Shown: positions 12,304 through 26,716 of the stretch, piece after piece
Layout of the letters: each line of letters starts with the position of its first letter
How positions within the stretch are numbered: the first letter of the stretch is position 1
Source of the DNA: Streptomyces sp.
GTDB lineage: Bacteria; Actinomycetota; Actinomycetes; Streptomycetales; Streptomycetaceae
DNA length: 64,000 bases
Direction of reading: 5' to 3'
Assembly (NCBI RefSeq): GCF_031181705.1
Contig: NZ_JAPSKN010000001.1
Location: forward strand, 1-64,000
Translations under genes and position numbers: made by a program
The notes under the pieces: generated by a model
What the model was told of the DNA's origin: nothing
The model's input: only the letters and a program-made list of their open reading frames with translations
The model's database searches: none

Positions 12304-13242
12304 TCAGTGACAGAGATGCGCCTCGTGCTCCGCGTGCCCGCCCGGCTCCAGCTGGAAGGTGCAGTGCTCCACGTCGAAGTGGTCACCGAGGCAGTTCTGC
12401 AGCTCGTGCAGCATCTTCTCGTGGCCTGTCGCACTCAGCGCCTCCGAGCTGACGACCACGTGGGCCGACAGCACCGGCATGCCCGAGGTGATGGTCCAGG
12501 CGTGCAGGTCGTGGACGTCCTCCACCCCGTCCGTGGCGAGGATGTGCGCCCGCACCTGCGCCATGTCGACGCCCTTGGGGGCCGCCTCCAGCAGCACGTC
12601 GAGGGTCTCGCGCAGCAGCTTCAGGGTCCGGGGCACGATCATCAGCGCGATCACGAGCGAGGCGATCGGGTCGGCCGCCTGCCAGCCCGTGAGCATGATC
12701 ACCACAGCGGAGACGATCACCGTGACCGACCCCAGCGCGTCCGCCGCGACCTCGAGGAACGCGCCGCGCACGTTCAGGCTCTCCTTCTGGCCCCGCATCA
12801 GCAGCGCCAGCGACACCAGGTTCGCGACCAGGCCGATCGCACCGAACAGCAGCGCCAGCCGGCCCTCGGTCTGCGCCGGGGTGAGGAAGCGCTGCACCGA
12901 CTCGTACACGACGTACCCGCCGGCCCCCAGCAGCAGCAGGCAGTTGGCCAGGGCGGCGAGGATCTCGGCCCGCGCGTAGCCGAAGGTGGCCCGGTCGCTC
13001 GGCGGGCGGTTCGCGAAGTGGATCGCGGCCAGCGCCATGGCCAGGCCCAGCGCGTCCGTCGCCATGTGCGCCGAGTCCGCGACCAGCGCCAGCGAGTCGG
13101 CGAGGACGCCACCGACGATCTGGACCGCCACGATGCCGAGCGTGATCGCCAGCGCGACCCGCAGCCGGCCGCGGTACGCCGAGGTCGCCGTGGCGCCGCC
13201 CGGCCCGCCGTGCGCGTGCCCGTGATCGTGCCCAGCCCCCAT
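12304..13242 (-). CDS. Cation diffusion facilitator (CDF/CzcD-type) transporter
   Basis: A 312-residue inner-membrane metal-proton antiporter with six predicted membrane segments. The N-terminus is His-rich (GAGHDHGHAHGG). Transport-site acidic and His residues are seen in VADSAHMATDALGLAMA and ADALGSVTVIVSAVV, and the cytoplasmic C-terminal domain has DVHDLHAWTITSGMPVLSAHV. These fit zinc or similar divalent cation export. The gene reads away from galE; its ATG lies about 100 bases from the galE terminator. Confidence 0.9.
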   Translation of the reverse strand: MGAGHDHGHAHGGPGGATATSAYRGRLRVALAITLGIVAVQIVGGVLADSLALVADSAHMATDALGLAMALAAIHFANRPPSDRATFGYARAEILAALANCLLLLGAGGYVVYESVQRFLTPAQTEGRLALLFGAIGLVANLVSLALLMRGQKESLNVRGAFLEVAADALGSVTVIVSAVVIMLTGWQAADPIASLVIALMIVPRTLKLLRETLDVLLEAAPKGVDMAQVRAHILATDGVEDVHDLHAWTITSGMPVLSAHVVVSSEALSATGHEKMLHELQNCLGDHFDVEHCTFQLEPGGHAEHEAHLCH

Positions 13243-13342
13243 GAAAAGCCACCCTTCCGCGTCCGCCTCATCCTGCTCGGGGACCCCAGTGAACTACGGG
13301 GAGGGGGTATGCGCAACGCGGCACTGAACACCGTTGTCATGT

Positions 13343-13377
13343 GCCCTGACCTGCGAAAACGATACGCAGGTCAGGGC
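13343..13377 (-). terminator. Terminator hairpin downstream of galE
   Basis: Arms 13343-13355 and 13365-13377 (GCCCTGACCTGCG and its complement) form a perfect 13-bp stem with a nine-base loop, starting five bases beyond the galE stop. There is no U-run, as usual in Streptomyces. Confidence 0.75.
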
Positions 13378-13381
13378 GCCC

Positions 13382-14371
13382 TCAGCGACTCTCGGCGGGT
13401 CGGGAGCCGTGGTGCAGCAGCCAGCCGCGCCAGGCCGACTCGGCCATCTCGCGCACCCCGCGCCGGGCGGTCCAGTCGAGTTCCGCGGCCGCCCGCGCCG
13501 CGGACGCGACCGCCCGCGGCGCGTCCCCGGGGCGCCGGCCCTCGACGACCGGGGGCCGCCGGTCGCCCGTGACCTCACCGATGACCGTGATCAGCTCGCG
13601 CACCGAGACGCCCTCCCCGCGGCCGATGTTGACCGTCAGATCGCCCGGGACGCCGTCCCCGGCGAGCCGCCGGGCCGCCGCGAGGTGCGCCTCGGCCAGG
13701 TCGGCGACGTGGATGTAGTCGCGCACACAGGTGCCGTCCGGGGTCGGGTAGTCGTCGCCGAAGATCCGGGGCGCCTCGTCGCGGGTCAGCCGGTCGAACA
13801 CCATCGGCACGATGTTGAACACCCCCGTGTCCGCCAGCTCGGGCGCGGCCGCCCCCGCCACGTTGAAATAGCGCAGGCACACGGTGGAGATCCCGTGCGC
13901 CCGGCCCGCCGCCCGCACCAGCCACTCCCCGGCCAGCTTGGTCTCGCCGTACGGGTTCACCGGCGCGCAGGGCGTGTCCTCCGTGATGAGGTCCACACCC
14001 GGGTCGCCGTACACCGCCGCCGACGACGAGAACACGAAGCGCCGGATGCCCGCCTGGGCCACCGCGTCCAGCAGGGTCGCGAGGCCGCCCACGTTCTCCC
14101 GGTAGTACCGCGTCGGCTGCGCCACGGACTCGGCGACCTGCTTGCGCGCCGCGAGGTGCACCACCCCCGTCACGCCGTGCTCCGCGAACACTTGCTTCAG
14201 CAGCGCCCCGTCGAGCGAGGAGCCCCGCACCAGCGGAACGCCGGACGGCAGCCGCGCGGGCACCCCGGCCGAGAGGTCGTCCAGGGCGAGGACGCGCTCC
14301 CCGGCCTCCGTCATGGCCCTGGCCACATGGGCCCCGATGTAGCCGGCCCCGCCGGTGATCAGCCAAGTCAT
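13382..14371 (-). CDS. galE: UDP-glucose 4-epimerase
   Basis: A 329-residue extended short-chain dehydrogenase. It begins with the NAD-binding TGGAGYIGAHVARA and has the catalytic SSSAAVYG serine region and YGETK (YxxxK). Converts UDP-galactose and UDP-glucose. Length and start agree with the family; longer in-frame readings upstream lack sense. It is divergent from the CDP-alcohol phosphotransferase operon, 276 bases apart, and may supply sugar nucleotide to that operon's glycosyltransferase. Confidence 0.93.
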   Translation of the reverse strand: MTWLITGGAGYIGAHVARAMTEAGERVLALDDLSAGVPARLPSGVPLVRGSSLDGALLKQVFAEHGVTGVVHLAARKQVAESVAQPTRYYRENVGGLATLLDAVAQAGIRRFVFSSSAAVYGDPGVDLITEDTPCAPVNPYGETKLAGEWLVRAAGRAHGISTVCLRYFNVAGAAAPELADTGVFNIVPMVFDRLTRDEAPRIFGDDYPTPDGTCVRDYIHVADLAEAHLAAARRLAGDGVPGDLTVNIGRGEGVSVRELITVIGEVTGDRRPPVVEGRRPGDAPRAVASAARAAAELDWTARRGVREMAESAWRGWLLHHGSRPAESR

Positions 14372-14647
14372 GGTCGCCCACCCTATGCCGCCGTCACCGC
14401 GCCCGGCGCAATGTCCCCGATGTCCGGTACGGGAAGCGCGGTTTGTGGGGCGGCCCCCGGATCCACGATGATGATCGCGGCAAGGGCTCGGGCGAACTGC
14501 GTCGATCCATCCGCCGAACGGGTGGTGAACACGCCCTTCCCGGCATCCGATAGCCTCTGCCGACAGCCGCCCGGCAGTCACCGGCACGGGCGCCCCCATC
14601 GTGCACACCACCGGCGCGGACGCGTCGGTACCAGGGAGTGAATTCGG

Positions 14648-16462
14648 TTGCCGACCGCCATCCTCACCGGTCAGCCGGTCCCCGGATCGTCGATCGAGGG
14701 CGACCTGCGGTCCCTCGGGTTCGACGTCCGGGTCGCGGCCGACGCCGCCGAGGCCGAGACACTGCTCGCCGAGGTGCCGGGCGACGAGCGGGTCGCCCTG
14801 GTCGACGCCCGCTTCGTGGGGCACGTGCACGCACTGCGCCTCGGCCTCACCGACCCCCGCTTCCCGCTCGCCGCGATCCCCGGCGCCGTGACCGCCCGCC
14901 CGGCCGGCCGCCAGGCCCTCACCCGGGCCATGGCCCGCGAGAACTCCTCAGGCGGCGGCACCACCCTGGTCGACAGCCTCGCCGACCGCGTCCTCACCGC
15001 CCTGGACGCCGACGGAACCGCCGTGCACCGCCCCGAGCTGGGCACCCTGGTCGCCGCCGTCCCCGTCGACCCGCAGGCCCGCAACGAGGCCCGGCAGGCG
15101 GTCGCGGACGTCGACGACGAGGCCGTACGCCTGAAGTCGGCCGTGAAGGCCCGCGACGGCTTCTTCACCACCTTCTGCGTCAGCCCGTACTCCCGTTACC
15201 TCGCCCGCTGGTGCGCCCGCCGGGGCCTGACCCCGAACCAGGTCACCACCGCCTCGCTGCTGACCGCCCTCATAGCGGCGGCCTGCGCGGCCACCGGCAC
15301 CCGCGGCGGCTTCGTCGCGGCCGGTGTCCTGCTGATCGCCTCCTTCGTGCTCGACTGCACCGACGGCCAGCTCGCCCGCTACTCCCTGCAGTACTCCACG
15401 CTCGGCGCCTGGCTGGACGCCACCTTCGACCGGGCCAAGGAGTACGCCTACTACGCCGGCCTCGCCCTCGGTGCCGCGCGCGGCGGCGACGACGTCTGGG
15501 CCCTGGCCCTCGGCGCCATGGTCCTGCAGACCTGCCGGCACGTCGTGGACTTCTCCTTCAACGAGGCCAACCACGACGCCACCGCCAACACCAGCCCCAC
15601 CGCCGCCCTGTCCGACAAGCTCGACAGCGTCGGCTGGACGGTCTGGGTGCGCCGCATGATCGTCCTGCCCATCGGCGAACGCTGGGCGATGATCGCGGTG
15701 CTCACGGCCCTCACCACCCCCCGCGTCACCTTCTACGCCCTGCTCGCCGGCTGCGCGTTCGCGGCGACGTACACGACGGCGGGCCGGGTACTGCGCTCCC
15801 TCACCCGCCGGGCGCAGCGCACCGACCGGGCGGCACGCGCCCTGGCCGACCTCGCGGACAGCGGCCCGCTCGCCCAGGGCATCGCCGAGGCGCTGCGCAG
15901 GCCCGCGCGCTCGCTGCCGGGCTTCACCGCACCCGCCGTCGCCCTCCTCGGCGGCCTCGCCGTCGTCCTCACGTCCGCGGTGACCGGCTTCGGCGGGCCC
16001 TGGCCGGTCGTCGCCGCACTCGCCTACGCCCTGGCCTCGGGCCTCGCCGTCGCCCGCCCCCTCAAGGGCGCCCTCGACTGGCTCGTGCCCCCGTTCCTGC
16101 GCGCCGCCGAGTACGGCACCGTCCTGGTGCTGGCGGCCCGGGCGGACGTGAACGGAGCCCTTCCTGCGGCTTTCGGGCTGGTGGCCGCGGTCGCCTACCA
16201 TCACTACGACACGGTGTACCGCATCCGCGGCGACGCCGGAGCGCCCCCCGCCTGGCTGGTGCGTTCCATCGGGGGGCACGAGGGACGGACGCTGCTCGTC
16301 ACCGTCCTCGCCGCGCTGCTCGCCGCCCCGCAGTTCACGGTCGCGCTCATGGTCCTCGCCGTGGCCGTGGCCCTGGTGGTGCTCGTCGAGAGCATCCGCT
16401 TCTGGGTCGCCGCCCACAAGGGCGGCGCACCCGCCGTACACGATGAAGGAGAACCCGCATGA
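14648..16462 (+). CDS. CDP-alcohol phosphatidyltransferase with N-terminal DUF5941-like region
   Basis: A 604-residue membrane enzyme starting at TTG with a GGGAG ribosome site. The first about 180 residues are soluble; then comes the CDP-alcohol phosphotransferase core with a complete signature D236-x2-D239-G-x2-A-R244-x8-G253-x3-D257-x3-D261. Several further membrane segments follow to the C-terminus. The family moves a phosphoalcohol from a CDP-alcohol onto a second alcohol, or diacylglycerol phosphate onto an alcohol. It is first in a tight operon (4-base overlap with the nucleotidyltransferase). Substrate unknown; neighbours suggest CDP-glycerol or CDP-inositol chemistry. Confidence 0.85.
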   Translation: MPTAILTGQPVPGSSIEGDLRSLGFDVRVAADAAEAETLLAEVPGDERVALVDARFVGHVHALRLGLTDPRFPLAAIPGAVTARPAGRQALTRAMARENSSGGGTTLVDSLADRVLTALDADGTAVHRPELGTLVAAVPVDPQARNEARQAVADVDDEAVRLKSAVKARDGFFTTFCVSPYSRYLARWCARRGLTPNQVTTASLLTALIAAACAATGTRGGFVAAGVLLIASFVLDCTDGQLARYSLQYSTLGAWLDATFDRAKEYAYYAGLALGAARGGDDVWALALGAMVLQTCRHVVDFSFNEANHDATANTSPTAALSDKLDSVGWTVWVRRMIVLPIGERWAMIAVLTALTTPRVTFYALLAGCAFAATYTTAGRVLRSLTRRAQRTDRAARALADLADSGPLAQGIAEALRRPARSLPGFTAPAVALLGGLAVVLTSAVTGFGGPWPVVAALAYALASGLAVARPLKGALDWLVPPFLRAAEYGTVLVLAARADVNGALPAAFGLVAAVAYHHYDTVYRIRGDAGAPPAWLVRSIGGHEGRTLLVTVLAALLAAPQFTVALMVLAVAVALVVLVESIRFWVAAHKGGAPAVHDEGEPA

Positions 16463-17211
16463 TCGGCCTCGTGCTGGCGGCCGGCGCCGGACGGCGTCTG
16501 CGCCCCTACACCGACAGCCTTCCCAAGGCGCTGGTGCCGGTGGGGCCCGCGGGCATAGAGGGCGAACCAACGGTTCTCGACCTGACCCTCGCCAACTTCG
16601 CCGAGGTCGGCCTCACGGAAGCGGCGATCATCGTCGGCTACCGCAAGGAGGCCGTCTACGCGCGCCGGGAGGCGCTGGAGCGGAAGTACGGCCTCAAGCT
16701 CACCCTCATCGACAACGACAAGGCCGAGGAGTGGAACAACGCCTACTCCCTGTGGTGCGGGCGTGACGCCCTCAAGGACGGCGTGATCCTCGCCAACGGC
16801 GACACCGTCCACCCGGTCTCCGTCGAGAAGACGCTGCTCGCCGCCCGCGGCGAGGGCAGGAAGATCATCCTCGCGCTCGACACGGTCAAGCAGCTCGCCG
16901 ACGAGGAGATGAAGGTCGTCGTCGACCCGGCCAAGGGCATGACGAAGATCACCAAGCTGATGGACCCCGCCGAGGCCACCGGCGAGTACATCGGCGTCAC
17001 CCTCATCGAGGGCGACGCGGCCCCGGAGCTCGCCGACGCGCTCAAGGCCGTCTGGGAGACCGACCCGCAGCAGTTCTACGAGCACGGCTACCAGGAGCTG
17101 GTCAACCGCGGCTTCCGCATCGACGTGGCACCCATCGGCGACGTCAGCTGGGTCGAGATCGACAACCACGACGATCTCGCCCGTGGACGGGAGATCGCAT
17201 GCCAGTACTGA
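16459..17211 (+). CDS. Nucleotidyltransferase (CTP:phosphoalcohol cytidylyltransferase-like)
   Basis: A 250-residue GT-A-like NTP transferase. The nucleotide-binding signature is GLVLAAGAGRRLRPYTDSLPKALVP, shown here as LAAGAGRRLRPYT and LPKALVP; a metal-binding NGDT lies near residue 114. The pattern resembles phosphocholine/inositol-phosphate cytidylyltransferases more than sugar nucleotide synthases. It overlaps the gene before it by 4 bases (ATGA) and the dehydrogenase after it by 13, so translation is coupled. The likely job is to activate the phosphoalcohol made by the next enzyme. Confidence 0.85.
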   Translation: MIGLVLAAGAGRRLRPYTDSLPKALVPVGPAGIEGEPTVLDLTLANFAEVGLTEAAIIVGYRKEAVYARREALERKYGLKLTLIDNDKAEEWNNAYSLWCGRDALKDGVILANGDTVHPVSVEKTLLAARGEGRKIILALDTVKQLADEEMKVVVDPAKGMTKITKLMDPAEATGEYIGVTLIEGDAAPELADALKAVWETDPQQFYEHGYQELVNRGFRIDVAPIGDVSWVEIDNHDDLARGREIACQY

Positions 17212-18260
17212 CGCGGCTGATCCCCTCGCCGCTCGTCGTGGACATCCGCCCCGGTGCCCTCGACGACCTGGCGTGCGTCCTCGCCGACGAGCGCATCTCG
17301 CACTCCGGCCGTCTCGCCGTCGCCGTCAGTGGCGGCTCGGGCGCGAAGCTGCGCGAGCGCATCTCGCCCGGCATGCCCGGCGCCACCTGGTACGAGGTCG
17401 GCGGCGGCACCCTCGACGACGCGGTCCGGCTGGCCAGTGACATAAAGGCCGGCCACTACGACGCGGTCGTCGGCCTCGGCGGCGGCAAGATCATCGACTG
17501 CGCGAAGTTCGCCGCGGCACGCGTCGGGCTGCCCCTGGTCGCCGTGCCGACCAACCTCGCGCACGACGGCCTGTGCTCGCCGGTCGCCACCCTCGACAAC
17601 GACGCGGGCCGCGGCTCCTACGGCGTGCCGAACCCGATCGCGGTCGTCATCGACCTCGACGTCATCCGCGAGGCCCCGGTCCGCTTCGTCCGGGCCGGCA
17701 TCGGCGACGCCGTCTCCAACATCTCGGCGATCGCCGACTGGGAGCTGGCGGGCCGCGTCAAGGGCGAACGGATCGACGGACTCGCCGCGGCCATGGCCCG
17801 CCAGGCCGGCGAGGCCGTGCTGCGGCACCCGGGCGGCATCGGGGACAACGACTTCCTCCAGGTGCTCGCCGAGGCGCTCGTCCTCAGCGGCATCGCCATG
17901 TCGGTGTCGGGTGACTCGCGGCCGTCCTCCGGGGCGTGCCACGAGATCAACCACGCCTTCGACCTGCTCTACCCGAAGCGGGCCGCCGCCCACGGCGAGC
18001 AGTGCGGTCTCGGCGCGGCCTTCGCGATGTGGCTGCGCGGGGCGCACGAGCAGTCGGCGTACATGGCCGAGGTGCTGCGCCGCCACGGTCTGCCCGTGCT
18101 GCCGGACGAGATCGGCTTCACCACGGACGAGTTCGTCAGGGTCGTCGAGTTCGCCCCCGAGACCCGCCCCGGCCGCTACACCATCCTCGAACACCTCGAC
18201 CTGAACACCGAACAGATCAAGGACACCTACACCGACTATGTCAAGGCCATCGGTAGCTGA
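17199..18260 (+). CDS. sn-glycerol-1-phosphate dehydrogenase-like iron-containing dehydrogenase
   Basis: A 353-residue group III metal-dependent dehydrogenase. NAD(P)-binding GLGGGKIIDCAKFAA, then PTNLAHDGLCSPVA (D123), SRPSSGACHEINHAFD (H248) and AAAHGEQCGLG (H265): these are the metal ligands and motifs of glycerol-1-phosphate dehydrogenase (EgsA/AraM), not of ordinary iron alcohol dehydrogenases. The family reduces dihydroxyacetone phosphate to sn-glycerol 1-phosphate, the archaeal lipid stereoisomer. Overlaps its neighbours on both sides (13 and 23 bases). A related sugar-phosphate substrate is the main alternative. Confidence 0.8.
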   Translation: MPVLTRLIPSPLVVDIRPGALDDLACVLADERISHSGRLAVAVSGGSGAKLRERISPGMPGATWYEVGGGTLDDAVRLASDIKAGHYDAVVGLGGGKIIDCAKFAAARVGLPLVAVPTNLAHDGLCSPVATLDNDAGRGSYGVPNPIAVVIDLDVIREAPVRFVRAGIGDAVSNISAIADWELAGRVKGERIDGLAAAMARQAGEAVLRHPGGIGDNDFLQVLAEALVLSGIAMSVSGDSRPSSGACHEINHAFDLLYPKRAAAHGEQCGLGAAFAMWLRGAHEQSAYMAEVLRRHGLPVLPDEIGFTTDEFVRVVEFAPETRPGRYTILEHLDLNTEQIKDTYTDYVKAIGS

Positions 18261-19017
18261 ACTACGCCCCGTCGTTCACCCCGCAGGGGTGAAGGACCGG
18301 CGCAGCGGTGAGCACTGGATGGGACGCCTCTACATGCGCGAGGTGTCCCTGCGGGTCGACCGCTACCTGGTCAACACCAGGGTCACGCCCAACCAGCTCA
18401 CGTACCTGATGACCGTCTTCGGTGTGCTCGCGGCCCCGGCACTGCTCGTGCCGGGGATCCCGGGCGCCGTGCTCGGCGTCGTGTGCGTCCAGATGTACCT
18501 GCTGCTGGACTGCGTCGACGGCGAGATCGCCCGCTGGAAGAAGCAGTACTCGCTCAACGGCGTCTACCTGGACCGCGTCGGCGCCTACCTCACCGACGCC
18601 GCCGTGCTCACCGGCTTCGGCCTGCGCGCCGCCGATCTGTGGGGCAGCGGCCGCATCGACTGGCTGTGGGCCTTCCTCGGCACCCTGGCCGCCCTCGGCG
18701 CCATCCTCATCAAGGCCGAGACCGACCTCGTGGGCGTCGCCCGGCACCAGGCCGGCAAGCCGCCGGTCAAGGAGGCCGCCGCCGAGATGCGCTCCTCCGG
18801 CATGGCGCTGGCCCGCAAGGCCGCCGCCTTCCTGAAGTTCCACCGCCTCATCCTCGGCATCGAGGCGTCCCTGCTGATCCTTGTCCTGGCGATCGTCGAC
18901 CACACCCGCGGCGACCTGTTCTTCTCCCGGCTCGGCGTGGCGGTGCTGGCCGGCATCGCCCTGGTGCAGACGCTGCTGCACCTCGTCTCCATCCTCGCTT
19001 CGAGCAGGCTGAAGTGA
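18238..19017 (+). CDS. Second CDP-alcohol phosphatidyltransferase family protein
   Basis: A 259-residue membrane protein with about five to six hydrophobic segments. The CDP-alcohol phosphotransferase signature is present from D91 (DCVDGEIARW, then NGVYLDRVGA), but the last aspartate, the proposed catalytic base, is replaced by Ala116. The gene overlaps the end of the dehydrogenase gene by 23 bases and the glycosyltransferase start by 4 (GTGA). It may have a changed mechanism, use another residue as base, or act with the first phosphotransferase. Confidence 0.8.
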   Translation: MSRPSVAELRPVVHPAGVKDRRSGEHWMGRLYMREVSLRVDRYLVNTRVTPNQLTYLMTVFGVLAAPALLVPGIPGAVLGVVCVQMYLLLDCVDGEIARWKKQYSLNGVYLDRVGAYLTDAAVLTGFGLRAADLWGSGRIDWLWAFLGTLAALGAILIKAETDLVGVARHQAGKPPVKEAAAEMRSSGMALARKAAAFLKFHRLILGIEASLLILVLAIVDHTRGDLFFSRLGVAVLAGIALVQTLLHLVSILASSRLK

Positions 19018-19895
19018 GCGGCATGAAGGTCGGCGCCGTCATCATCACCATGGGCAACCGCCCCGACGAGCTGCGCGCCCTGCTCGACTCGGTCGCCAAG
19101 CAGGACGGCGACCCGGTCGAGGTGGTCGTGGTCGGCAACGGCTCGCCCGTACCGGACGTCCCCGAGGGCGTGCGCACGATCGAGCTGCCCGAGAACCTCG
19201 GCATCCCCGGCGGCCGCAACGTCGGCATCGAGGCCTTCGGCCCGGCCGGCCGGGACGTCGACATCCTGCTCTTCCTCGACGACGACGGGCTCCTCGCGAG
19301 CCACGACACCGCCGAACTGTGCCGCAAGGCGTTCGAGGCCGACCCCAAGCTCGGCATCATCAGCTTCCGCATAGCCGACCCGGACACCGGTGTCACCCAG
19401 CGCCGCCACGTCCCCCGGCTGCGCGCCGCCGACCCGATGCGCTCCTCCCGGGTCACCACTTTCCTGGGCGGCGCCAACGCCGTCCGCACCCGCGTCTTCG
19501 CCGACGTCGGCGGCCTGCCCGACGCGTTCTTCTACGCCCACGAGGAGACCGACCTCGCCTGGCGGGCCCTCGACGCCGGCTGGATGATCGACTACCGGTC
19601 CGACATGGTGCTCTACCACCCGACGACCGCCCCCTCGCGGCACGCGGTCTACCACCGGATGGTCGCCCGCAACCGGGTCTGGCTGGCCCGCCGCAACCTC
19701 CCCGCCCTCCTCGTCCCGGTCTACCTCGGCGTGTGGCTGCTGCTCACCCTCCTGCGCCGCCCCTCCCGCCGTGCGCTGCGGGCCTGGTTCGGCGGATTCC
19801 GCGAGGGCTGGGCCACCCCCTGCGGGCCCCGCCGGCCCATGAAGTGGCGTACGGTGTGGCGGCTGACCCGACTGGGCCGGCCGCCCGTCATCTGA
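19014..19895 (+). CDS. Family 2 glycosyltransferase
   Basis: A 293-residue GT2 enzyme. Nucleotide-sugar binding begins at VGAVIITMGNRPDELRALL; the metal-binding acidic triad is LLFLDDDGLL; the acceptor/base region reads HEETDLAWRALDAGW. A hydrophobic segment near residue 235 (LLVPVYLGVWLLLTLL) probably attaches it to the membrane. The GTG start overlaps the preceding stop (GTGA); an ATG nine bases later is an alternative. It probably glycosylates the lipid-linked product of the phosphotransferases before export. Confidence 0.88.
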   Translation: MSGMKVGAVIITMGNRPDELRALLDSVAKQDGDPVEVVVVGNGSPVPDVPEGVRTIELPENLGIPGGRNVGIEAFGPAGRDVDILLFLDDDGLLASHDTAELCRKAFEADPKLGIISFRIADPDTGVTQRRHVPRLRAADPMRSSRVTTFLGGANAVRTRVFADVGGLPDAFFYAHEETDLAWRALDAGWMIDYRSDMVLYHPTTAPSRHAVYHRMVARNRVWLARRNLPALLVPVYLGVWLLLTLLRRPSRRALRAWFGGFREGWATPCGPRRPMKWRTVWRLTRLGRPPVI

Positions 19896-20006
19896 CAAGC
19901 TCGTGTCCGCGAGCGTCCGGGAGCATCCGGGAGGGGCCGTACCCCGGCCCCCGGCTCATGCCAGGCCCGCACAGGCCGCGCATCTCGAAGACGAAAGTTT
20001 CCACTA

Positions 20007-20936
20007 GTGAGTGAGACAACGCACGACGCCACGGTCGCGGTGAGCGCGCCCGCGGCGCCCGACGAGGGCCTCACGGCGAGGGAGCTCGCCGCCAAGTACG
20101 GGCTGAGCGTGAGCGGCGCCCGGCCGTCCCTCATCGAGTACGTCCGTCAGCTCTGGGGACGGCGGCACTTCATCCTCGCCTTCTCCCAGGCGAAGCTGAC
20201 CGCGCAGTACAGCCAGGCCAAGCTCGGCCAGCTGTGGCAGGTGGCCACGCCGCTGCTCAACGCGGCCGTGTACTTCTTCATCTTCGGCCTGCTGCTGGAG
20301 GCCGACCGGGGCATGTCCCGCGAGGTGTACATCCCGTTCCTGGTCACGGGCGTGTTCGTGTTCACCTTCACGCAGAGCTCGGTGATGGCGGGCGTGCGCG
20401 CGATCTCCGGCAACCTCGGCCTGGTCCGCGCCCTGCACTTCCCGCGCGCCTCGCTGCCGATCTCGTTCGCGCTGCAGCAGCTGCAGCAGCTGCTGTTCTC
20501 GATGATCGTGCTGTTCGCCGTGGCGATCGGGTTCGGCCACTACCCGGACCTGTCCTGGGCGCTGATCGTGCCGGTGCTCGTCCTGCAGTTCTGCTTCAAC
20601 ACCGGCCTCGCGCTGATCATGGCCCGGGCGGGCGCCAAGACCCCCGACCTCGCGCAGCTGATGCCGTTCGTGATGCGGACGTGGATGTACGCGTCCGGCG
20701 TGATGTTCTCCATCCCGATCTTCCTCGAGGACAAGCCGGCCTGGATCGCCAACGTCCTGCAGTGGAACCCGGCCGCGATCTACATGGACCTGATGCGCTT
20801 CGCGCTCATCGACGACTACGGCTCGCAGTACCTGCCCGACCACGTCTGGGCGGTAGCGGGCGGCTGGGCCGTGCTGTTCGCCCTCGGCGGCTTCGTGTAC
20901 TTCTGGAAGGCGGAGGAGAGGTACGGCCGTGGCTGA
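20007..20936 (+). CDS. ABC-2 type exporter permease (TagG/Wzm-like)
   Basis: A 309-residue permease with about six membrane segments, of the polysaccharide/teichoic-acid export type. Conserved opening of the fold: SLIEYVRQLWGRRHFILAFSQAKLTAQYSQAKLGQLWQ region, then VYFFIFGLLL and PFLVTGVFVFTF. The first about 40 residues are cytoplasmic. The GTG start gives MSETTHDATV. It overlaps the ATPase gene by 8 bases. With it, it should move a lipid-linked glycan or glycolipid across the membrane. Confidence 0.88.
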   Translation: MSETTHDATVAVSAPAAPDEGLTARELAAKYGLSVSGARPSLIEYVRQLWGRRHFILAFSQAKLTAQYSQAKLGQLWQVATPLLNAAVYFFIFGLLLEADRGMSREVYIPFLVTGVFVFTFTQSSVMAGVRAISGNLGLVRALHFPRASLPISFALQQLQQLLFSMIVLFAVAIGFGHYPDLSWALIVPVLVLQFCFNTGLALIMARAGAKTPDLAQLMPFVMRTWMYASGVMFSIPIFLEDKPAWIANVLQWNPAAIYMDLMRFALIDDYGSQYLPDHVWAVAGGWAVLFALGGFVYFWKAEERYGRG

Positions 20937-21717
20937 GCAGAAGCAGGACGCGAAGATCCCCACCGTCATCGCGGACGATCTGCACATCGTCTACCGCGTC
21001 AACGGCGCCAAGACCGGCAAGGGCAGCGCCACCGCCGCCCTCAGCCGCATCCTCAGGCGCGGCTCCGACGACACCGCGCGCGGGGTGCGCACGGTGCACG
21101 CCGTGCGCGGGGTCTCCTTCGTCGCCTACCGGGGCGAGGCCATCGGCCTGATCGGCTCCAACGGCTCCGGCAAGTCCACCCTGCTGCGCGCCATCGCGGG
21201 CCTGCTGCCCGCCGAGCGGGGCAAGGTCTACACCGACGGCCAGCCCTCGCTGCTCGGTGTCAACGCGGCCCTGATGAACGACCTCACCGGCGAACGCAAC
21301 GTCATATTGGGCGGGCTGGCCATGGGCATGTCCCGCGAGGAGATCAAGGAGCGCTACCAGGACATCGTCGACTTCTCCGGCATCAACGAGAAGGGCGACT
21401 TCATCACCCTGCCCATGCGCACCTACTCCTCCGGCATGGCGGCCCGGCTCCGGTTCTCCATCGCCGCGGCCAAGGACCACGACGTCCTGATGATCGACGA
21501 GGCGCTGGCCACCGGCGACCGCAAGTTCCAGAAGCGCTCCGAGGACCGCATCCGGGAGCTGCGCAAGGAAGCCGGCACGGTGTTCCTGGTCAGCCACAAC
21601 AACAAGTCCATCCGCGACACCTGCAACCGCGTCCTGTGGCTGGAGCGCGGCGAACTGCGCATGGACGGCCCGACCGACGAGGTGCTCAAGGAGTACGAGA
21701 AGTTCACCAACAAGTAG
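20929..21717 (+). CDS. ABC exporter ATP-binding protein (TagH/Wzt-like)
   Basis: A 262-residue ATPase partner of the preceding permease. Walker A GSNGSGKSTLLRAI, signature YSSGMAARLRFS and Walker B VLMIDEALATGD are all intact. There is no extra C-terminal carbohydrate-binding domain as in O-antigen Wzt, so substrate choice is probably made by the permease. GTG start with AGGAGAGG upstream. A terminator hairpin follows, closing the operon. Confidence 0.9.
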   Translation: MAEQKQDAKIPTVIADDLHIVYRVNGAKTGKGSATAALSRILRRGSDDTARGVRTVHAVRGVSFVAYRGEAIGLIGSNGSGKSTLLRAIAGLLPAERGKVYTDGQPSLLGVNAALMNDLTGERNVILGGLAMGMSREEIKERYQDIVDFSGINEKGDFITLPMRTYSSGMAARLRFSIAAAKDHDVLMIDEALATGDRKFQKRSEDRIRELRKEAGTVFLVSHNNKSIRDTCNRVLWLERGELRMDGPTDEVLKEYEKFTNK

Positions 21718-22015: not shown

Positions 22016-22081
22016 ATGGCTACGGAAACTCCCCAGCTCCACGCAGCACGTGCCGTCCCCGCGCCGGGCAGCCGGCGGTGA
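22016..22081 (+). CDS. Possible leader peptide translationally coupled to hpnC
   Basis: A 21-codon frame, ATG to TGA, encoding MATETPQLHAARAVPAPGSRR. Its TGA overlaps the GTG of hpnC (GTGA). A GGAG lies 11 bases before its ATG, whereas hpnC itself has no convincing ribosome site and no alternative upstream start before an in-frame stop at 21994. Ribosomes finishing this frame could therefore re-initiate on hpnC. The peptide resembles nothing I know. Confidence 0.4.
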   Translation: MATETPQLHAARAVPAPGSRR

Positions 22082-22980
22082 CGGGAACCGGCACGGCGCG
22101 CGCCCTCGACCCGGAGCGCGGCACCCTCGACAAGGCCGCAGGCGAGAACTTCCCGGTGGCCCCCTTCTTCCTGCCCCGGGCCTGGCGCACCGACCTCATG
22201 GCCGTCTACGGCTTCGCCCGCCTCGTCGACGACATCGGCGACGGCGATCTCGCCCCCGGCGGCGCCGACGCCCGGCTGCTCGGGGTCTCCCCGCAGGAGG
22301 CCGGGGACCGGCTGGTCCTGCTCGACGCGTTCGAGGCCGACCTGCGCCGGGTCTTCGACGGCACGCCCCGTCACCCGCTGCTGCGCCGCCTGCAGCCGAC
22401 CGTCCGCCGCCGCCGCCTGACCCCCGAGCCGTTCCTCGGCCTGATCGCCGCCAACCGCCAGGACCAGGTGGTCGGCCGCTACGAGACCTACGACGACCTG
22501 CTCGCCTACTGCGAGCTGTCGGCCAACCCCGTGGGGCGTCTCGTTCTCGCCGTCACCGGCACCTCCACGCCCGAGCGGATCCGCCGCTCCGACATGATCT
22601 GCACCGCCCTGCAGATCGTCGAGCACCTCCAGGACGTGGCCGAGGACCTCGGCCGGGACCGGGTGTACCTGCCCGCCGCCGACCTGAAGCGTTTCCACGT
22701 CGAGGAGGCGGATCTCGCCGCGGACACCGCCGGGGCCCCGGTCCGCGCGCTGATCGCGTACGAGGCGCAACGGGCCCGGGATCTGCTGAACGAGGGCGCC
22801 CCCCTGGTGGGTAGCGTCCACGGCAGGCTGAAGCTGCTGCTCGCCGGGTTCGTGGCGGGAGGGAGGGCGGCTCTGCACGCGATCGCCGCCGCCGACTACG
22901 ACGTACTTCCCGGCCCGCCCAAGCCCGGCAAGGTCCGCTTGCTGCGTGAGGTGGGCGTGATCCTGCGAGGAGAGGGGTGA
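22078..22980 (+). CDS. hpnC: Squalene synthase HpnC (hydroxysqualene-forming)
   Basis: A 300-residue trans-isoprenyl diphosphate synthase fold with two Asp-rich motifs, RLVDDIGDGD and QDVAEDLGRDRVYLP. In the bacterial three-enzyme route HpnD makes presqualene diphosphate from two farnesyl diphosphates, HpnC turns it into hydroxysqualene, and HpnE reduces this to squalene. Start is the GTG at 22078, forced by an upstream stop. The 3' end overlaps hpnD by 4 bases. Confidence 0.92.
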   Translation: MTGTGTARALDPERGTLDKAAGENFPVAPFFLPRAWRTDLMAVYGFARLVDDIGDGDLAPGGADARLLGVSPQEAGDRLVLLDAFEADLRRVFDGTPRHPLLRRLQPTVRRRRLTPEPFLGLIAANRQDQVVGRYETYDDLLAYCELSANPVGRLVLAVTGTSTPERIRRSDMICTALQIVEHLQDVAEDLGRDRVYLPAADLKRFHVEEADLAADTAGAPVRALIAYEAQRARDLLNEGAPLVGSVHGRLKLLLAGFVAGGRAALHAIAAADYDVLPGPPKPGKVRLLREVGVILRGEG

Positions 22981-23927
22981 TCCGGACCGTGGAGTCGGAA
23001 CCGCACGCGTCCCCGCCGGTACTCGCCGCCTACAGCTACTGCGAGGTCGTCACCGGGCGGCAGGCCCGTAACTTCGCCTACGGCATCCGGCTGCTGCCGA
23101 CGGCCCAGCGCCGGGCGATGTCGGCGCTGTACGCGTTCTCGCGGCGGGTCGACGACATCGGTGACGGCGCGCTCGCCGACGACGTCAAGGTCGCCCGGCT
23201 GGAGGAGACCCGGGCGCTGCTCACCCGGATCCGCGAGGGCGGCGTCGACGAGGACGACACCGACCCGGTCGCGGTCGCCCTCACCCACGCGGCCGGGCGG
23301 TTCCCGATCCCGCTGGGCGGCCTGGACGAACTCATCGACGGCGTGCTCATGGACGTCCGCGGCGAGACCTACGAGACCTGGGACGACCTGAAGGTGTACT
23401 GCCGCTGCGTGGCGGGCGCCATCGGGCGGCTCTCGCTCGGCGTGTTCGGCACCGAACCAGGGGCGCGCGGCGTCGAGCGCGCGCCCGAGTATGCCGACAC
23501 GCTCGGTCTCGCGCTCCAGCTCACCAACATCCTCCGGGACGTTCGCGAGGACGCCGTGGGGGGCCGTACCTATCTGCCCGCCGACGATCTCGCGAAGTTC
23601 GGCTGCTCGGCCGGCTTCAGCGGGCCGAAGCCACCCGAGGGCTCCGACTTCGCGGGCCTGGTGCACTTCGAAGTGCGACGGGCCCGCGCTCTTTTCGCCG
23701 AGGGCTACCGGCTGCTGCCCATGCTCGACCGACGCAGCGGCGCCTGCGTCGCCGCCATGGCCGGCATCTACCGCCGCCTGCTCGACCGCATCGAGCGCGA
23801 CCCCGAGGCCGTGCTGCGCGGCCGGGTCTCGCTGCCCGGCCGGGAGAAGGCGTACGTCGCCGTGCGCGGGCTGTCCGGCCTGGACGCCCGGCACGTGACC
23901 CGACAGGCCGTCAGGAGGCGCGCATGA
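22977..23927 (+). CDS. hpnD: Presqualene diphosphate synthase HpnD
   Basis: A 316-residue partner of HpnC. Asp-rich motifs SRRVDDIGDGAL and LRDVREDAVGGRTYLPADDL are intact, with LQLTNILRD between them as in phytoene/squalene synthases. Condenses two farnesyl diphosphates. GTG start in a GTGA overlap with hpnC, preceded by GGAGAGG. Its stop overlaps the next small gene (ATGA). Confidence 0.92.
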   Translation: MIRTVESEPHASPPVLAAYSYCEVVTGRQARNFAYGIRLLPTAQRRAMSALYAFSRRVDDIGDGALADDVKVARLEETRALLTRIREGGVDEDDTDPVAVALTHAAGRFPIPLGGLDELIDGVLMDVRGETYETWDDLKVYCRCVAGAIGRLSLGVFGTEPGARGVERAPEYADTLGLALQLTNILRDVREDAVGGRTYLPADDLAKFGCSAGFSGPKPPEGSDFAGLVHFEVRRARALFAEGYRLLPMLDRRSGACVAAMAGIYRRLLDRIERDPEAVLRGRVSLPGREKAYVAVRGLSGLDARHVTRQAVRRRA

Positions 23928-24052
23928 CCGGCGGCACCGCCCTCGGCGGAAAGCGGCGGGCAACCCTCCGGCCGGGGCCCGCGTCCCTGACACAGACGGC
24001 CGGCCGCGCACGGTCCGGGCAGCACGGCCGCCGCACAGGGGAGGGCACGTGA
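23924..24052 (+). CDS. Small DUF6380-type protein between hpnD and hpnE
   Basis: A 42-residue frame fitted exactly into the gap: its ATG overlaps the hpnD stop (ATGA) and its TGA overlaps the hpnE ATG (TGATG). The sequence is basic, with GGKRRATLRP, PASLTQTAGRA and a final GRRTGEGT, matching what I remember of the short DUF6380 family found at this place in Streptomyces hopanoid operons. No membrane segment. Function unknown; it may only couple hpnD and hpnE translation. Confidence 0.6.
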   Translation: MTGGTALGGKRRATLRPGPASLTQTAGRARSGQHGRRTGEGT

Positions 24053-25458
24053 TGAGCACACGGTCCCACGGACCGGTCGCGGACGGCCGGCACACCGTCG
24101 TGGTGGGCGGCGGGCTCGCCGGCGTCACCACCGCGCTCGCGCTCGCCGACGCCGGAGTGCGCGTCACCCTGCTGGAGGGCCGGCCCCGGCTCGGCGGCCT
24201 GGCCTTCTCCTTCCAGCGCGGCGACCTCACCGTCGACAACGGCCAGCACGTGTACCTGCGCTGCTGCACCGCCTACCGCTGGTTCCTCGACCGCATCGAG
24301 GGCGCGGCGCTGGCCCCGCTGCAGGACCGGCTCGACGTCCCCGTCGTGGACCTCGCGCGGCCCGAAGGGCGGCGGCTCGGCAGGCTGCGGCGCGACGCGC
24401 TGCCCGTGCCCCTGCACCTGGGCCGCAGCCTCGCCACCTACCCGCACCTGTCGCTGGCCGAGCGTGCCCGGGTGGGCCGGGCGGCGCTCGCGCTGAAAGG
24501 GCTCGACCTCGCCGACCCGGCGCTCGACACGCAGGACTTCGGCAGCTGGCTCGCGGCGCACGGCCAGTCGCCGCGCGCCGTCGAGGCACTGTGGGACCTG
24601 GTCGGCGTCGCCACGCTCAACGCGGTCGCGTCGGAGGCCTCCCTGGGGCTCGCCGCGATGGTGTTCAAGACCGGTCTGCTGTCCGACCCGGGCGCGGCCG
24701 ACATCGGCTGGGCGCGCGTCCCGCTGGGCGACCTGCACGACCGGCTGGCCCGCAAGGCCCTGGACTCCGCGGGCGTGCGCACCGAGGTCCGTACCCGCGT
24801 CAGCTCCGTCTCCCGGAACGTGGACGGCGGGTGGAGCGTCCAGGTTCCCGGCGAGACGCTCGGCGCCGACGCCGTCGTGCTCGCCGTACCGCAGCGCGAG
24901 GCGCACGACCTGCTTCCCCAGGGCGCCCTCGACGCGCCCGAGCGGCTCCTGGAGATCGGCACCGCGCCGATCCTCAACGTCCATGTGGTGTACGACCGCA
25001 AGGTCCTCGCCCGGCCCTTCCTCACCGCCCTCGGCACGCCGGTCCAGTGGGTGTTCGACCGGACCGAGGCGTCCGGACTGCGCTCCGGGCAGTACCTGGC
25101 CCTGTCCCAGTCGGCGGCCCAGGACGAGATCGACGCGCCCGTCGCCGTCCTGCGCGAGCGGTACCTGCCCGAGCTGGAGCGGCTGCTGCCGCTGACCCGG
25201 GGCGCCGGGGTGAAGGACTTCTTCGTCACCCGGGAGCGCACCGCGACGTTCGCTCCCACCCCCGGCGTCGGACGCCTCAGGCCCGGCGCCCGCACCAAGG
25301 CAACCGGCCTGTGCCTGGCCGGAGCGTGGACCGCCACCGGGTGGCCCGCGACCATGGAGAGTGCGGTCCGCAGTGGTGTGAGCGCGGCGGACGCCGTGCT
25401 GGGCGCCCTGGGCCGGCCCCGCCCCCGTCACCTCTTCGACTTCGAGGAGGCGGCGTGA
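24052..25458 (+). CDS. hpnE: Hydroxysqualene dehydroxylase HpnE
   Basis: A 468-residue FAD amine-oxidase-fold enzyme. The dinucleotide motif VVVGGGLAGVTTALALADAG is followed by LLEGRPRLGG, and the C-terminal flavin contact is GLCLAGAWTATGWPATMESAVRSG. It removes the hydroxyl of hydroxysqualene using a reduced flavin to give squalene. I chose ATG 24052 rather than GTG 24049 for the better spacing to GGGGAGGG. The 3' end is close to or overlaps the next reading frame. Confidence 0.92.
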   Translation: MSTRSHGPVADGRHTVVVGGGLAGVTTALALADAGVRVTLLEGRPRLGGLAFSFQRGDLTVDNGQHVYLRCCTAYRWFLDRIEGAALAPLQDRLDVPVVDLARPEGRRLGRLRRDALPVPLHLGRSLATYPHLSLAERARVGRAALALKGLDLADPALDTQDFGSWLAAHGQSPRAVEALWDLVGVATLNAVASEASLGLAAMVFKTGLLSDPGAADIGWARVPLGDLHDRLARKALDSAGVRTEVRTRVSSVSRNVDGGWSVQVPGETLGADAVVLAVPQREAHDLLPQGALDAPERLLEIGTAPILNVHVVYDRKVLARPFLTALGTPVQWVFDRTEASGLRSGQYLALSQSAAQDEIDAPVAVLRERYLPELERLLPLTRGAGVKDFFVTRERTATFAPTPGVGRLRPGARTKATGLCLAGAWTATGWPATMESAVRSGVSAADAVLGALGRPRPRHLFDFEEAA

Positions 25459-25526
25459 TGCCGGCCCAGGCCGGCGCGGCGGGCGGCGGCCCCCGCACCC
25501 CCGGTACCGCAACAAGAGGAGAGACT

Positions 25527-26594
25527 GTGCCCACTGTGCCCCCGGCCTCGAGGACTGCCGAGGCGGTGGACGTGACCGCGCTGCTGGAGCGCGGCCGGAC
25601 CCTGGCCACTCCGGTGCTGCGGGCGGCCGTCGACCGTCTGGCACCCCCCATGGACACGGTCGCCGCCTACCACTTCGGCTGGATCGACGCCCAGGGCAGG
25701 CCCGCCGAGGGCGACGGTGGCAAGGCCGTGCGCCCCGCCCTCGCGGTGCTGTCCGCCGAGGTCATGTCAGCCGCTCCCGAGACCGGCGTCCCCGGCGCCG
25801 TCGCCGTGGAACTCGTCCACAACTTCTCCCTCCTCCACGACGACCTCATGGACGGCGACGAACAGCGCCGCCACCGCGACACGGTGTGGAAGGTGCACGG
25901 CCCCGCCCAGGCCATCCTGGTCGGCGACGCCCTGTTCGCCCTCGCGGGCGAGGTGCTCCTCGAACTCGGCACCGTCGACGCCGGCCGCGCCACCCGCCGC
26001 CTGACCACCGCCACCCGCGCCCTGATCGACGGCCAGGCCCAGGACATCTCCTACGAGCACCGCGACCGCGTCAGCGTCGAGGAGTGCCTGGAGATGGAGG
26101 GCAACAAGACCGGCGCCCTGCTCGCCTGCGCCAGCTCCATCGGCGCCGTCCTCGGCGGCGCCGACGACCGCACCGCCGACACGCTGGAGAAGTACGGCTA
26201 CCACCTGGGCCTCGCCTTCCAGGCCGTCGACGACCTGCTCGGCATCTGGGGCGACCCGGTCTCCACCGGCAAGCAGACCTGGAGCGACCTGCGCCAGCGC
26301 AAGAAGTCCCTGCCGGTCGTCGCCGCGCTCGCGGCCGGCGGCCCCGCCTCGGAGCGGCTCGGCGAGATCCTCGCCGCCGACGCCAAGGCCAGCGACTTCG
26401 AGAACTTCTCCGAGGAGGAGTTCGCGGCCCGCGCCGCCCTCATCGAGGAGGCCGGCGGCCGCGAGTGGACCGCCGACGAGGCACGCCGTCAGCACACCAT
26501 CGCCCTCGAGGCCCTCGACGCCGTGGACATGCCCGACCGGGTGCGGGCACAGTTCACGGCGCTCGCGGACTTCGTCGTCGTACGGAAGAGATGA
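25527..26594 (+). CDS. Polyprenyl (probably farnesyl) diphosphate synthase
   Basis: A 355-residue head-to-tail prenyl synthase. First Asp-rich motif LLHDDLMDGD, second FQAVDDLLGIWGD, and the KPVR-like GKAVRPALAVL region. It makes the farnesyl diphosphate consumed by HpnC/HpnD from the products of IPP isomerase, IspG and Dxs. The GTG at 25527 has AGGAG five bases upstream; an ATG at 25458 directly after hpnE is an alternative adding 23 residues. Bulky residues before the first motif would decide chain length and were not analysed. Confidence 0.92.
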   Translation: MPTVPPASRTAEAVDVTALLERGRTLATPVLRAAVDRLAPPMDTVAAYHFGWIDAQGRPAEGDGGKAVRPALAVLSAEVMSAAPETGVPGAVAVELVHNFSLLHDDLMDGDEQRRHRDTVWKVHGPAQAILVGDALFALAGEVLLELGTVDAGRATRRLTTATRALIDGQAQDISYEHRDRVSVEECLEMEGNKTGALLACASSIGAVLGGADDRTADTLEKYGYHLGLAFQAVDDLLGIWGDPVSTGKQTWSDLRQRKKSLPVVAALAAGGPASERLGEILAADAKASDFENFSEEEFAARAALIEEAGGREWTADEARRQHTIALEALDAVDMPDRVRAQFTALADFVVVRKR

Positions 26595-26627
26595 TCACTA
26601 TCGGCCGAATAACCCTCGCGTAGTCGC

Positions 26628-26663
26628 CGGCCGGTGCCGCGAGCCAGCACGGAGCACCGGCCG
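26628..26663. other. Hairpin in the gap before shc
   Basis: The 122-base gap 26595-26716 is the largest inside the hopanoid operon. It contains a 10-bp perfect stem, 26628-26637 with 26654-26663, and a 16-base loop. It could be a weak attenuator or processing site; a separate shc promoter in this gap is possible. No gene is seen. Confidence 0.35.
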
Positions 26664-26716
26664 ACGGCGGACCCACAGCAGCTGCACACCTTGCACCACT
26701 GCACGAAGGGGAAGCC

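Follow-up and report, generated by a model that had tools for sequence, protein, structure and literature searches.

The window analysed here, a stretch of 64,000 nucleotides from Streptomyces sp. (contig NZ_JAPSKN010000001.1), carries at 14648-21717 an operon of seven genes, P1 to P7, that is probably an actinobacterial glycerol-phosphate polymer cassette, in which P2 and P3 would replace TagD by supplying cytidine diphosphate (CDP)-glycerol from sn-glycerol 1-phosphate (G1P), the enantiomer found chiefly in archaea. Judged by the company these genes keep, the product is likely to be a teichoic-acid-type polymer or its lipid-linked precursor. The evidence comes from the relationships of P3 and P2 to enzymes of known function, and from the distribution of P3 among actinobacterial genomes relative to TagF-like and TagD-like genes. 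A sequence-only reading of the window had described seven tightly spaced genes on one strand; their order, coordinates and spacing were confirmed, and the families that it proposed match the Pfam and NCBIfam assignments:

P1, 14648..16462, + strand: CDP-alcohol phosphotransferase with a degenerate cytidylyltransferase-like N-domain (residues ~1-158) and a C-terminal DUF5941 (Pfam CDP-OH_P_transf and DUF5941)
P2, 16459..17211, + strand: COG1213-like (LicC / inositol-1-phosphate type) cytidylyltransferase, proposed as a CTP:G1P cytidylyltransferase (Pfam NTP_transferase)
P3, 17199..18260, + strand: glycerol-1-phosphate-dehydrogenase-like enzyme (Pfam Fe-ADH_2)
P4, 18238..19017, + strand: second CDP-alcohol phosphotransferase, without the last Asp of the motif (Pfam CDP-OH_P_transf)
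P5, 19014..19895, + strand: family 2 glycosyltransferase (GT2), starting at GTG 19014 or ATG 19023 (Pfam Glycos_transf_2)
P6, 20007..20936, + strand: ABC-2 permease, TagG/Wzm-like (Pfam ABC2_membrane)
P7, 20929..21717, + strand: ABC ATPase, TagH-like (Pfam ABC_tran)

Overlaps of 4, 13, 23 and 8 base pairs (bp) join P1/P2, P2/P3, P3/P4 and P6/P7 respectively, and P4/P5 overlap by 4 bp if the GTG at 19014 is the start of P5; the sole intergenic gap, of 111 bp, separates P5 from P6. Conservation was followed in 80 named loci, which are the best 80 of 585 relatives of P3, all from Streptomyces and at least 87% identical; the closest of these 80 by P3 is that of S. olindensis, at 99%. The 65 full-length loci were used for gene-presence counts and the 15 shorter ones left out. 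All seven genes are found in 65 of the 65, so that their grouping is not a matter of chance.

The dehydrogenase P3

By sequence profile and predicted fold, P3 groups with the sn-glycerol-1-phosphate dehydrogenases (G1PDHs), including AraM of B. subtilis. Its best NCBIfam model is the NAD(P)-dependent G1P dehydrogenase (PRK00843), at 240.4 bits; as this does not reach the cut-off of 413, P3 is described here as an enzyme that would work in the manner of a G1PDH and is not classed as an equivalog. In the PDB it scores highest against the G1P dehydrogenase entries of M. jannaschii (148 bits) and 3ce9 (148), with 71 for the best other glycerol dehydrogenase, 1kq3. A profile built from ten P3 orthologs gives 223 bits for 3ce9, 209 for 4rgq (M. 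jannaschii G1PDH), 183 for 5fb3 (G1PDH) and 127 for 9h4x (B. subtilis AraM), with at most 84 for glycerol dehydrogenases other than 3ce9 and at most 51 for dehydroquinate synthases.

The predicted structure gives the same grouping. G1PDHs and 3ce9 make up the 16 best Foldseek chains for the AlphaFold model of P3, and their VIA Z scores against it are 30.8-32.6: 32.6 for 5fb3 (root-mean-square deviation (rmsd) 3.2, 316 residues aligned), 31.7 for 4rgq (rmsd 3.1, 314 aligned) and 30.9 for AraM 9h4x (rmsd 3.3, 326 aligned). The best glycerol dehydrogenase outside this group, 3uhj, has Z 27.3 with rmsd 3.6 over 320 aligned residues. With mean pLDDT values of 68.6 (P3) and 70.7 (P1) the AlphaFold models are of moderate quality, and the fold results serve as supporting evidence only. 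Glycerol dehydrogenases and dehydroquinate synthases are more distant from P3 than the G1PDHs are, with the single exception of 3ce9, which scores with the G1PDHs; structure prediction did not place P3 with another substrate of the group III dehydrogenases, an outcome that the sequence-only reading had named as fatal to its assignment.

That reading had also pointed to D123, H248 and H265 motifs. The three residues are present as it said, with one correction as to their roles: by analogy with other group III dehydrogenases, the metal is presumably held by D170, H248 and H265, while D123 would lie at the substrate. In an alignment of 41 P3 sequences D123, H248, H252 and H265 do not vary, and residue 170 is an Asp in 36 and a Glu in five; the SRPxSG region is also kept. 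Statements on published work refer, here and below, to the parts of the cited papers available to us: actinobacterial sequences, Streptomyces among them, already stand in published G1PDH trees (PMC5059525, PMC6431249).

The cytidylyltransferase P2

P2 is a predicted CTP-type (cytidine triphosphate) cytidylyltransferase of the LicC/inositol-phosphate type (COG1213-like). It matches PF00483, PF12804 and sugar-nucleotidyltransferase models and gives no TIGR01518 match, that is, it is not of the TagD type (COG0615). Its PDB matches are LicC (1jyk, 48.9 bits), PntC and 4jd0, the last being the inositol-1-phosphate cytidylyltransferase of T. maritima (PMC12275187). The GxGxR...PK signature is intact in 34 of 35 P2 sequences, and the remaining one is truncated by a contig end. 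With a threshold of >200 bits for each, orthologs of P2 and of P3 are found in one and the same set of 43 of 61 relatives; G020, a member of this set, has two P2 copies, both of them fragments lying at contig ends. The likeness of P2 to PntC had raised a phosphonate-type pathway as a candidate. The EgsA-type dehydrogenase counts against it; no PepM search was made.

Co-occurrence with TagF-like and TagD-like genes

The distribution of these genes was determined in a class sample of 355 actinobacterial genomes, with strong PF04464 (TagF-like) matches set at E<=1e-70 and TagD-like matches (TIGR01518) at E<=1e-30. P3 is present in 88 genomes and a TagD-like gene in 26; none has both. PF04464 matches fill 166 rows, 123 of them at E<=1e-70, and in these 123 genomes P3 accompanies PF04464 and is absent wherever a TagD-like gene is present: 80 have P3 only, 15 a TagD-like gene only, none both and 28 neither, with no correction for phylogeny. 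The table of P3 against PF04464 over the whole sample reads 80/8/43/224 (both, P3 only, PF04464 only, neither), and the Fisher values ignore phylogeny. Counting by genus (50) gives 29, 6, 0 and 15 for P3 only, TagD-like only, both and neither, and relaxing the PF04464 threshold to E<=1e-30 gives 83, 18, 0 and 32 of 133. The 13 PF04464 genomes of family f79 comprise 11 with a TagD-like gene, one with P3 and one with neither.

A phylum sample of 198 genomes, which partly overlaps the class sample, was counted by hand at cut-offs of >200 bits for PF04464, >150 for P3-like and >130 for TagD-like genes. Its 15 PF04464 genomes divide into ten with a P3-like gene, four with a TagD-like gene, none with both and one with neither. 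Among the 61 relatives, TagD (TIGR01518) reaches its cut-off in none.

The cassette in other families and in second copies

Loci outside Streptomyces bring P3 and PF04464 genes physically together. In family f3 (L051-L054), which belongs to the same taxonomic order as Streptomyces, P1-P7 stand near a GT2+PF04464 fusion, which Pfam shows in L051, L052 and L053 and a PF04464 match at the same place indicates in L054; the stretch read there has no hopanoid genes. L113 holds all seven genes and a TagF-like gene. At L112 the genes P2-P3-P6-P7 are flanked by a GT2+PF04464 fusion and by a weak second PF04464 gene that starts 12 bases from the P2 match, and TagF-like genes lie ~100 bases from a P2-P3-like pair at L106 and within 5 kb at L114. 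P3 is thus found within 10 kb of PF04464 genes in four families other than that of Streptomyces (L051-L054, L106, L112, L113, L114), which is a lower bound and not a rate, the loci having been chosen partly for nearness. Elsewhere P2-P3 is accompanied, at single loci, by LCP wall ligases and glycosyltransferases; at L050 two LCP-type wall ligases adjoin a P2-P3-exporter block. It is because the companions of P2-P3 are TagF-like polymerases, LCP wall ligases and glycosyltransferases that a teichoic-acid-type product is favoured.

No other pair is as constant as P2-P3: some loci lack P1, P4, P5 or the exporter, partly through contig ends, and little beyond P2-P3 was recognised at L118, L120 and L125. 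In G165 P2 and P3 are ~15 kb apart. An extra P3 copy occurs in five of the 69 genus members searched (G003, G020, G364, G394, G500). It is adjoined by obg in four of the five loci and by RNase E, on the other side, in three of these, in a scan that covered L102, L103 (which begins at a contig end), L116 and L117 and left out L115. TagF-like genes lie within 10 kb of the extra copy in three of the five genomes (L103, L115, L116), and tblastn found none in the 20 kb read at L102 and L117. At L115 P3 stands without P2; the other spare copies are mostly P2-P3.

More distant P3-like genes were read at L055-L058 and L061, with a P2-like gene adjoining in L055, L056 and L061. Several of these loci have a PF01663 type I phosphodiesterase, a PF02397 bacterial sugar transferase or DUF4012 nearby instead of adjoining CDP-alcohol transferases, and perhaps represent another G1P polymer system. 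At L106 a mannitol-dehydrogenase-type protein (12716-14791, the same as L059 10217-12289) overlaps the end region of the P2-P3-like pair that adjoins the TagF-like gene.

The synteny itself is already published: a group comprising araM, tagG, tagH, crtB, a CDP-alcohol transferase, a GT2 and a nucleotidyltransferase has been filed under teichoic acid biosynthesis by annotation (PMC13118837). We found no description of a G1PDH-based CDP-glycerol route for teichoic acids, or of a G1P-based mechanism for this locus, in the accessible parts of the open-licence literature searched.

The exporter

The best NCBIfam model for P7 is TagH, at 188.9 bits, below the cut-off of 320. The same genome has a second TagGH-like pair, 82% identical to P7 and 69% to P6, which adjoins a TagF-like gene and a divergent TetR gene (L105 8561-13521). 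In S. roseosporus a TagGH pair under the TetR regulator TagR has been studied as a wall teichoic acid exporter (PMC10269677), and we infer that the second pair is the same locus. At L045 (5767-8031) two sulfotransferase-like genes stand between the exporter genes and P5.

The phosphotransferases P1 and P4

P1 has an intact DxxDGxxAR(x8)GxxxDxxxD motif, as do 74 of 76 named-locus sequences, the other two giving no motif match. Its N-domain (about residues 1-160) has the IspD and PntC folds (Z ~11-12.5), and in none of 31 rows does it keep the nucleotidyltransferase signature. The whole fold resembles AF2299 and IPCT-DIPPS (Z 20.4 and 18.7), with rmsd values of 14.0 and 11.8 over the whole match that make the domain placement unreliable. 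The stretch from residue 165 to 597, DUF5941 included, can be superposed on cholinephosphotransferase 8ul9 (Z 20.4, rmsd 4.6, 320 aligned), on CEPT1 8gyw (Z 18.6, rmsd 4.1, 302 aligned) and also on 8ero and 9uet; as P1 aligns with these enzymes as well, a lipid alcohol is a candidate acceptor.

In P4 the last Asp of the same motif is replaced by Ala or His in 29 of 29 orthologs and in the window (a paralog row from L055 was dropped), and by Ala in 80 of 80 named loci. Every P4 sequence read has an Asp or Glu four residues past the lost position. This shifted acid may serve P4 as its base; alternatively, P4 may act as a subunit that partners P1.

Proposed pathway

We propose that P3 would reduce dihydroxyacetone phosphate to G1P and that P2 would join G1P to CTP, giving a CDP-glycerol of archaeal handedness, so that the two together would do the work of GpsA plus TagD. 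This CDP-glycerol would feed TagF-like polymerases encoded elsewhere in the genome. P1, with its complete motif, and P4, perhaps as its partner subunit in view of its incomplete one, would draw on the same CDP-glycerol to put glycerol phosphate on a membrane-bound acceptor; P5 would glycosylate the product and P6/P7 would export it.

The sequence-only reading had already proposed a CDP-activated G1P that is transferred, glycosylated and exported, and to this extent it is a good reading, consistent with the G1PDH-like profile and fold of P3, the predicted CTP-type P2 in the same 43 of 61 relatives and the TagGH-like exporter. Its further suggestion, a surface lipid with an archaeal-type backbone, found no support. 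PcrB/GGGPS, the prenyltransferase that would attach G1P in such a lipid, is over cut-off in none of the 61 relatives, with one weaker match (G054), the genome of the window being 81% complete; in the control genomes it is over cut-off in five of 14. We reject the archaeal-type lipid on this ground, the search having been aimed at GGGPS and not at DGGGPS. Species of Streptomyces have been stated to hold G1PDH, GGGPS and DGGGPS (PMC6431249); for GGGPS this statement, as given in the part of that source available to us, was not reproduced among our 37 genus members, and other species may differ.

A number of observations weigh against the proposed pathway. No member of the cassette family has a demonstrated activity. 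The best match of the P3 profile, 3ce9, was deposited as a glycerol dehydrogenase, and the Glu of SGxEH (P3 residue 247), present in all five G1PDH-group comparison sequences, is Cys in 31, Asp in two and Glu in eight of the 41 P3 sequences; because it is mostly Cys, substrate use by P3 could differ. The P4 motif is incomplete, and the match of P1 to cholinephosphotransferases besides AF2299 fits a lipid acceptor equally well. The main Streptomyces operon is itself without a TagF gene. P3 is kept without strong PF04464 in four of the 37 genus members (G022, G023, G031 and G034, the full cassette being read in the last three at L077, L080 and L064) and in eight of the 88 P3 genomes of the class sample (G304, G329, G331, G391, G474, G516, G566, G573), so that TagF cannot be the sole user. 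PF04464 also covers ribitol and other polyol enzymes.

The co-occurrence has weak points of its own. Of the 80 genomes with P3 and PF04464, 67 come from two families (f1, f70), and the statistics ignore phylogeny; 28 of the 123 strong-PF04464 genomes have neither P3 nor a TagD-like gene; and only four of the 26 TagD-like calls reach the NCBI cut-off, the other 22 lying below it. Weaker TIGR01518 matches, reaching 69.6 bits within the genus and 109 bits for G053, occur in 29 of the 61 relatives, and in P3 genomes such sub-cut-off matches are taken for other nucleotidyltransferases. On the enzymatic side, CpgD, which is of COG1213, makes CDP-glycerate and did not accept glycerol-1-phosphate (PMC12275187).

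Alternative explanations

The alternative that survives best, unlikely as we consider it, keeps the same kind of wall polymer and has P3 and P2 make another CDP-polyol, for example from another phospho-ketone, so that handedness and carbon number would not be those of G1P. The Glu-to-Cys change at P3 residue 247 and a score of 240.4 bits where the NCBIfam G1PDH cut-off is 413 would both fit such a substrate, and actinobacterial wall polymers use several polyols. Yet the nearest solved structures of P3 are G1PDHs plus 3ce9, and SRPxSG, D123, D/E170, H248, H252 and H265 are all kept. Moreover, the wall and lipoteichoic acids of S. hygroscopicus are polyglycerol phosphate (PMC3196553), while TagD reaches its cut-off in 0 of 61 relatives.

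We give still less credence to an exported phosphoglycerol lipid or glycolipid in place of a polymer, in which P1/P4 would transfer G1P from CDP-glycerol to a lipid alcohol (e.g. diacylglycerol) in the Kennedy manner, P5 would glycosylate and P6/P7 export the product, and the link with TagF would be secondary. Were diacylglycerol the acceptor, the product would be the phosphatidylglycerol usual in bacteria, with no archaeal-type backbone; the head group of phosphatidylglycerol has the sn-1 configuration (PMC7086022). The alignment of P1 residues 165-597 with 8ul9, 8ero, 9uet and CEPT1 8gyw speaks for it, as does the persistence of the cassette in genus members without strong PF04464 (L064, L077, L080). 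Hopanoid genes also adjoin the cassette in 65 of 65 full loci, but none were seen around it in the families examined outside the genus, and the PF04464 association, the TagD exclusion and the TagH-like ATPase all tell against a lipid product.

We hold it highly improbable that the operon makes a cytoplasmic solute, by a route resembling those to di-myo-inositol phosphate or diglycerol phosphate, and that the exporter is a mere neighbour. The AF2299 / IPCT-DIPPS architecture of P1 and the resemblance of P2 to inositol-1-phosphate cytidylyltransferase would suit such a pathway; against it stand the exporter and GT2, which are kept in all 65 full Streptomyces loci and occur in several other lineages as well, and the TagF-like and LCP neighbours.

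Neighbouring genes

In the 65 full Streptomyces loci the cassette is accompanied by Idi (65/65), HpnC/HpnD (65/65), CDF (59/65) and GalE (48/65). In the window, the region 3' of the operon (22078-28711) holds two squalene/phytoene-synthase-like genes, an HpnE-like gene, a polyprenyl synthase and a squalene-hopene cyclase-like gene, which we take to be a hopanoid-type set. Hopanoid modification was considered as the role of the operon and dropped, because hopanoid adjacency was seen in Streptomyces loci only: in the other families examined, the flanks of the cassette (~10 kb on either side, or less where a contig ended) showed no hopanoid genes. A GalE-like epimerase gene lies divergently upstream of the operon at 13382-14407, and its homolog is inside the cassette in the family f3 loci.

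Significance

A G1P-based supply would answer where CDP-glycerol comes from in relatives in which TagD stays below cut-off (61/61). S. hygroscopicus has a polyglycerol phosphate lipoteichoic acid close to its wall teichoic acid, with tagB/tagF orthologs mentioned (PMC3196553). Cot et al. noted that actinomycetes, which lack a clear ortholog of LtaS, produce a glycerol-phosphate lipoteichoic acid, and suggested a pathway shared with wall teichoic acid (PMC3196553). That G1P, by way of a dedicated G1PDH and a COG1213-type cytidylyltransferase replacing TagD, is the building block of teichoic acids in a large share of actinomycetes we regard as evenly poised between true and false. If true, it would give a use to bacterial G1PDH genes in genomes without PcrB, and a major role to G1P outside archaeal-type lipids.

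Handedness is the main, and a probable, prediction of the G1P-based reading. In B. subtilis the wall teichoic acid is sn-3 and the lipoteichoic acid sn-1, the two being told apart by GlpQ (PMC7086022). Actinomycete wall polymers made in the cytoplasm from G1P would mirror the wall teichoic acid of Bacillus and have the same handedness as the lipoteichoic acid of Firmicutes. Both enantiomers are taken in vitro by some TagF-like polymerases and CDP-glycerol synthases (PMC5974469, PMC8262930). Handedness affects which hydrolases cut wall polymers, and perhaps how receptors and antibodies read them.

Comparison with known systems

With the EgsA/AraM G1PDHs P3 shares the predicted fold, the metal-site residues and the SRPxSG region, and differs from them in the replacement of the SGxEH Glu by Cys. 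In the AraM-PcrB system of Bacillus the product is an archaeal-type ether lipid, whereas the cassette genomes have no PcrB over cut-off and the genomic partners of P3 are a cytidylyltransferase and glycerophosphate polymerases. P2 shares its signature and sequence kinship with LicC, inositol-1-phosphate cytidylyltransferase and CpgD, all of which take small phospho-alcohols; G1P, which we propose for P2, is not among the substrates named for COG1213 enzymes in the available part of PMC12275187. The Streptomyces araM/tagG/tagH/crtB synteny group is the same locus as ours, and the part of that work available to us proposes no G1P route, TagD replacement or handedness (PMC13118837).

IPCT-DIPPS and AF2299 of Archaeoglobus join a cytidylyltransferase-like domain to a CDP-alcohol phosphotransferase, as does P1, but in P1 the N-domain has lost its signature, DUF5941 is added and a separate, active-looking enzyme, P2, is present. 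With cholinephosphotransferase and CEPT1, whose donor is a water-soluble CDP-alcohol, P1 aligns over 302-320 residues at 10-13% identity, and has an extra N-terminal domain. A parallel to the pairing of P3 and P2 is TarJ/TarI of the ribitol teichoic acids, where adjacent genes encode a reductase and a cytidylyltransferase that make CDP-ribitol for PF04464 enzymes. P3/P2 is likewise a dehydrogenase/cytidylyltransferase pair, although the protein families and the predicted polyol differ.

The arrangement of the P6/P7 paralogs in the same genome, with a TagF-like gene and a divergent TetR gene, is that of S. roseosporus TagGH/TagR (PMC10269677). With the TagD-TagB-TagF-TagGH pathway of B. subtilis 168 the proposed system would have in common a cytoplasmic CDP-glycerol, PF04464 polymerases and TagGH-type ABC export. 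It adds two CDP-alcohol phosphotransferases, and its G1PDH-like and COG1213-like enzymes would stand in place of GpsA and TagD, which predicts the opposite glycerol enantiomer.

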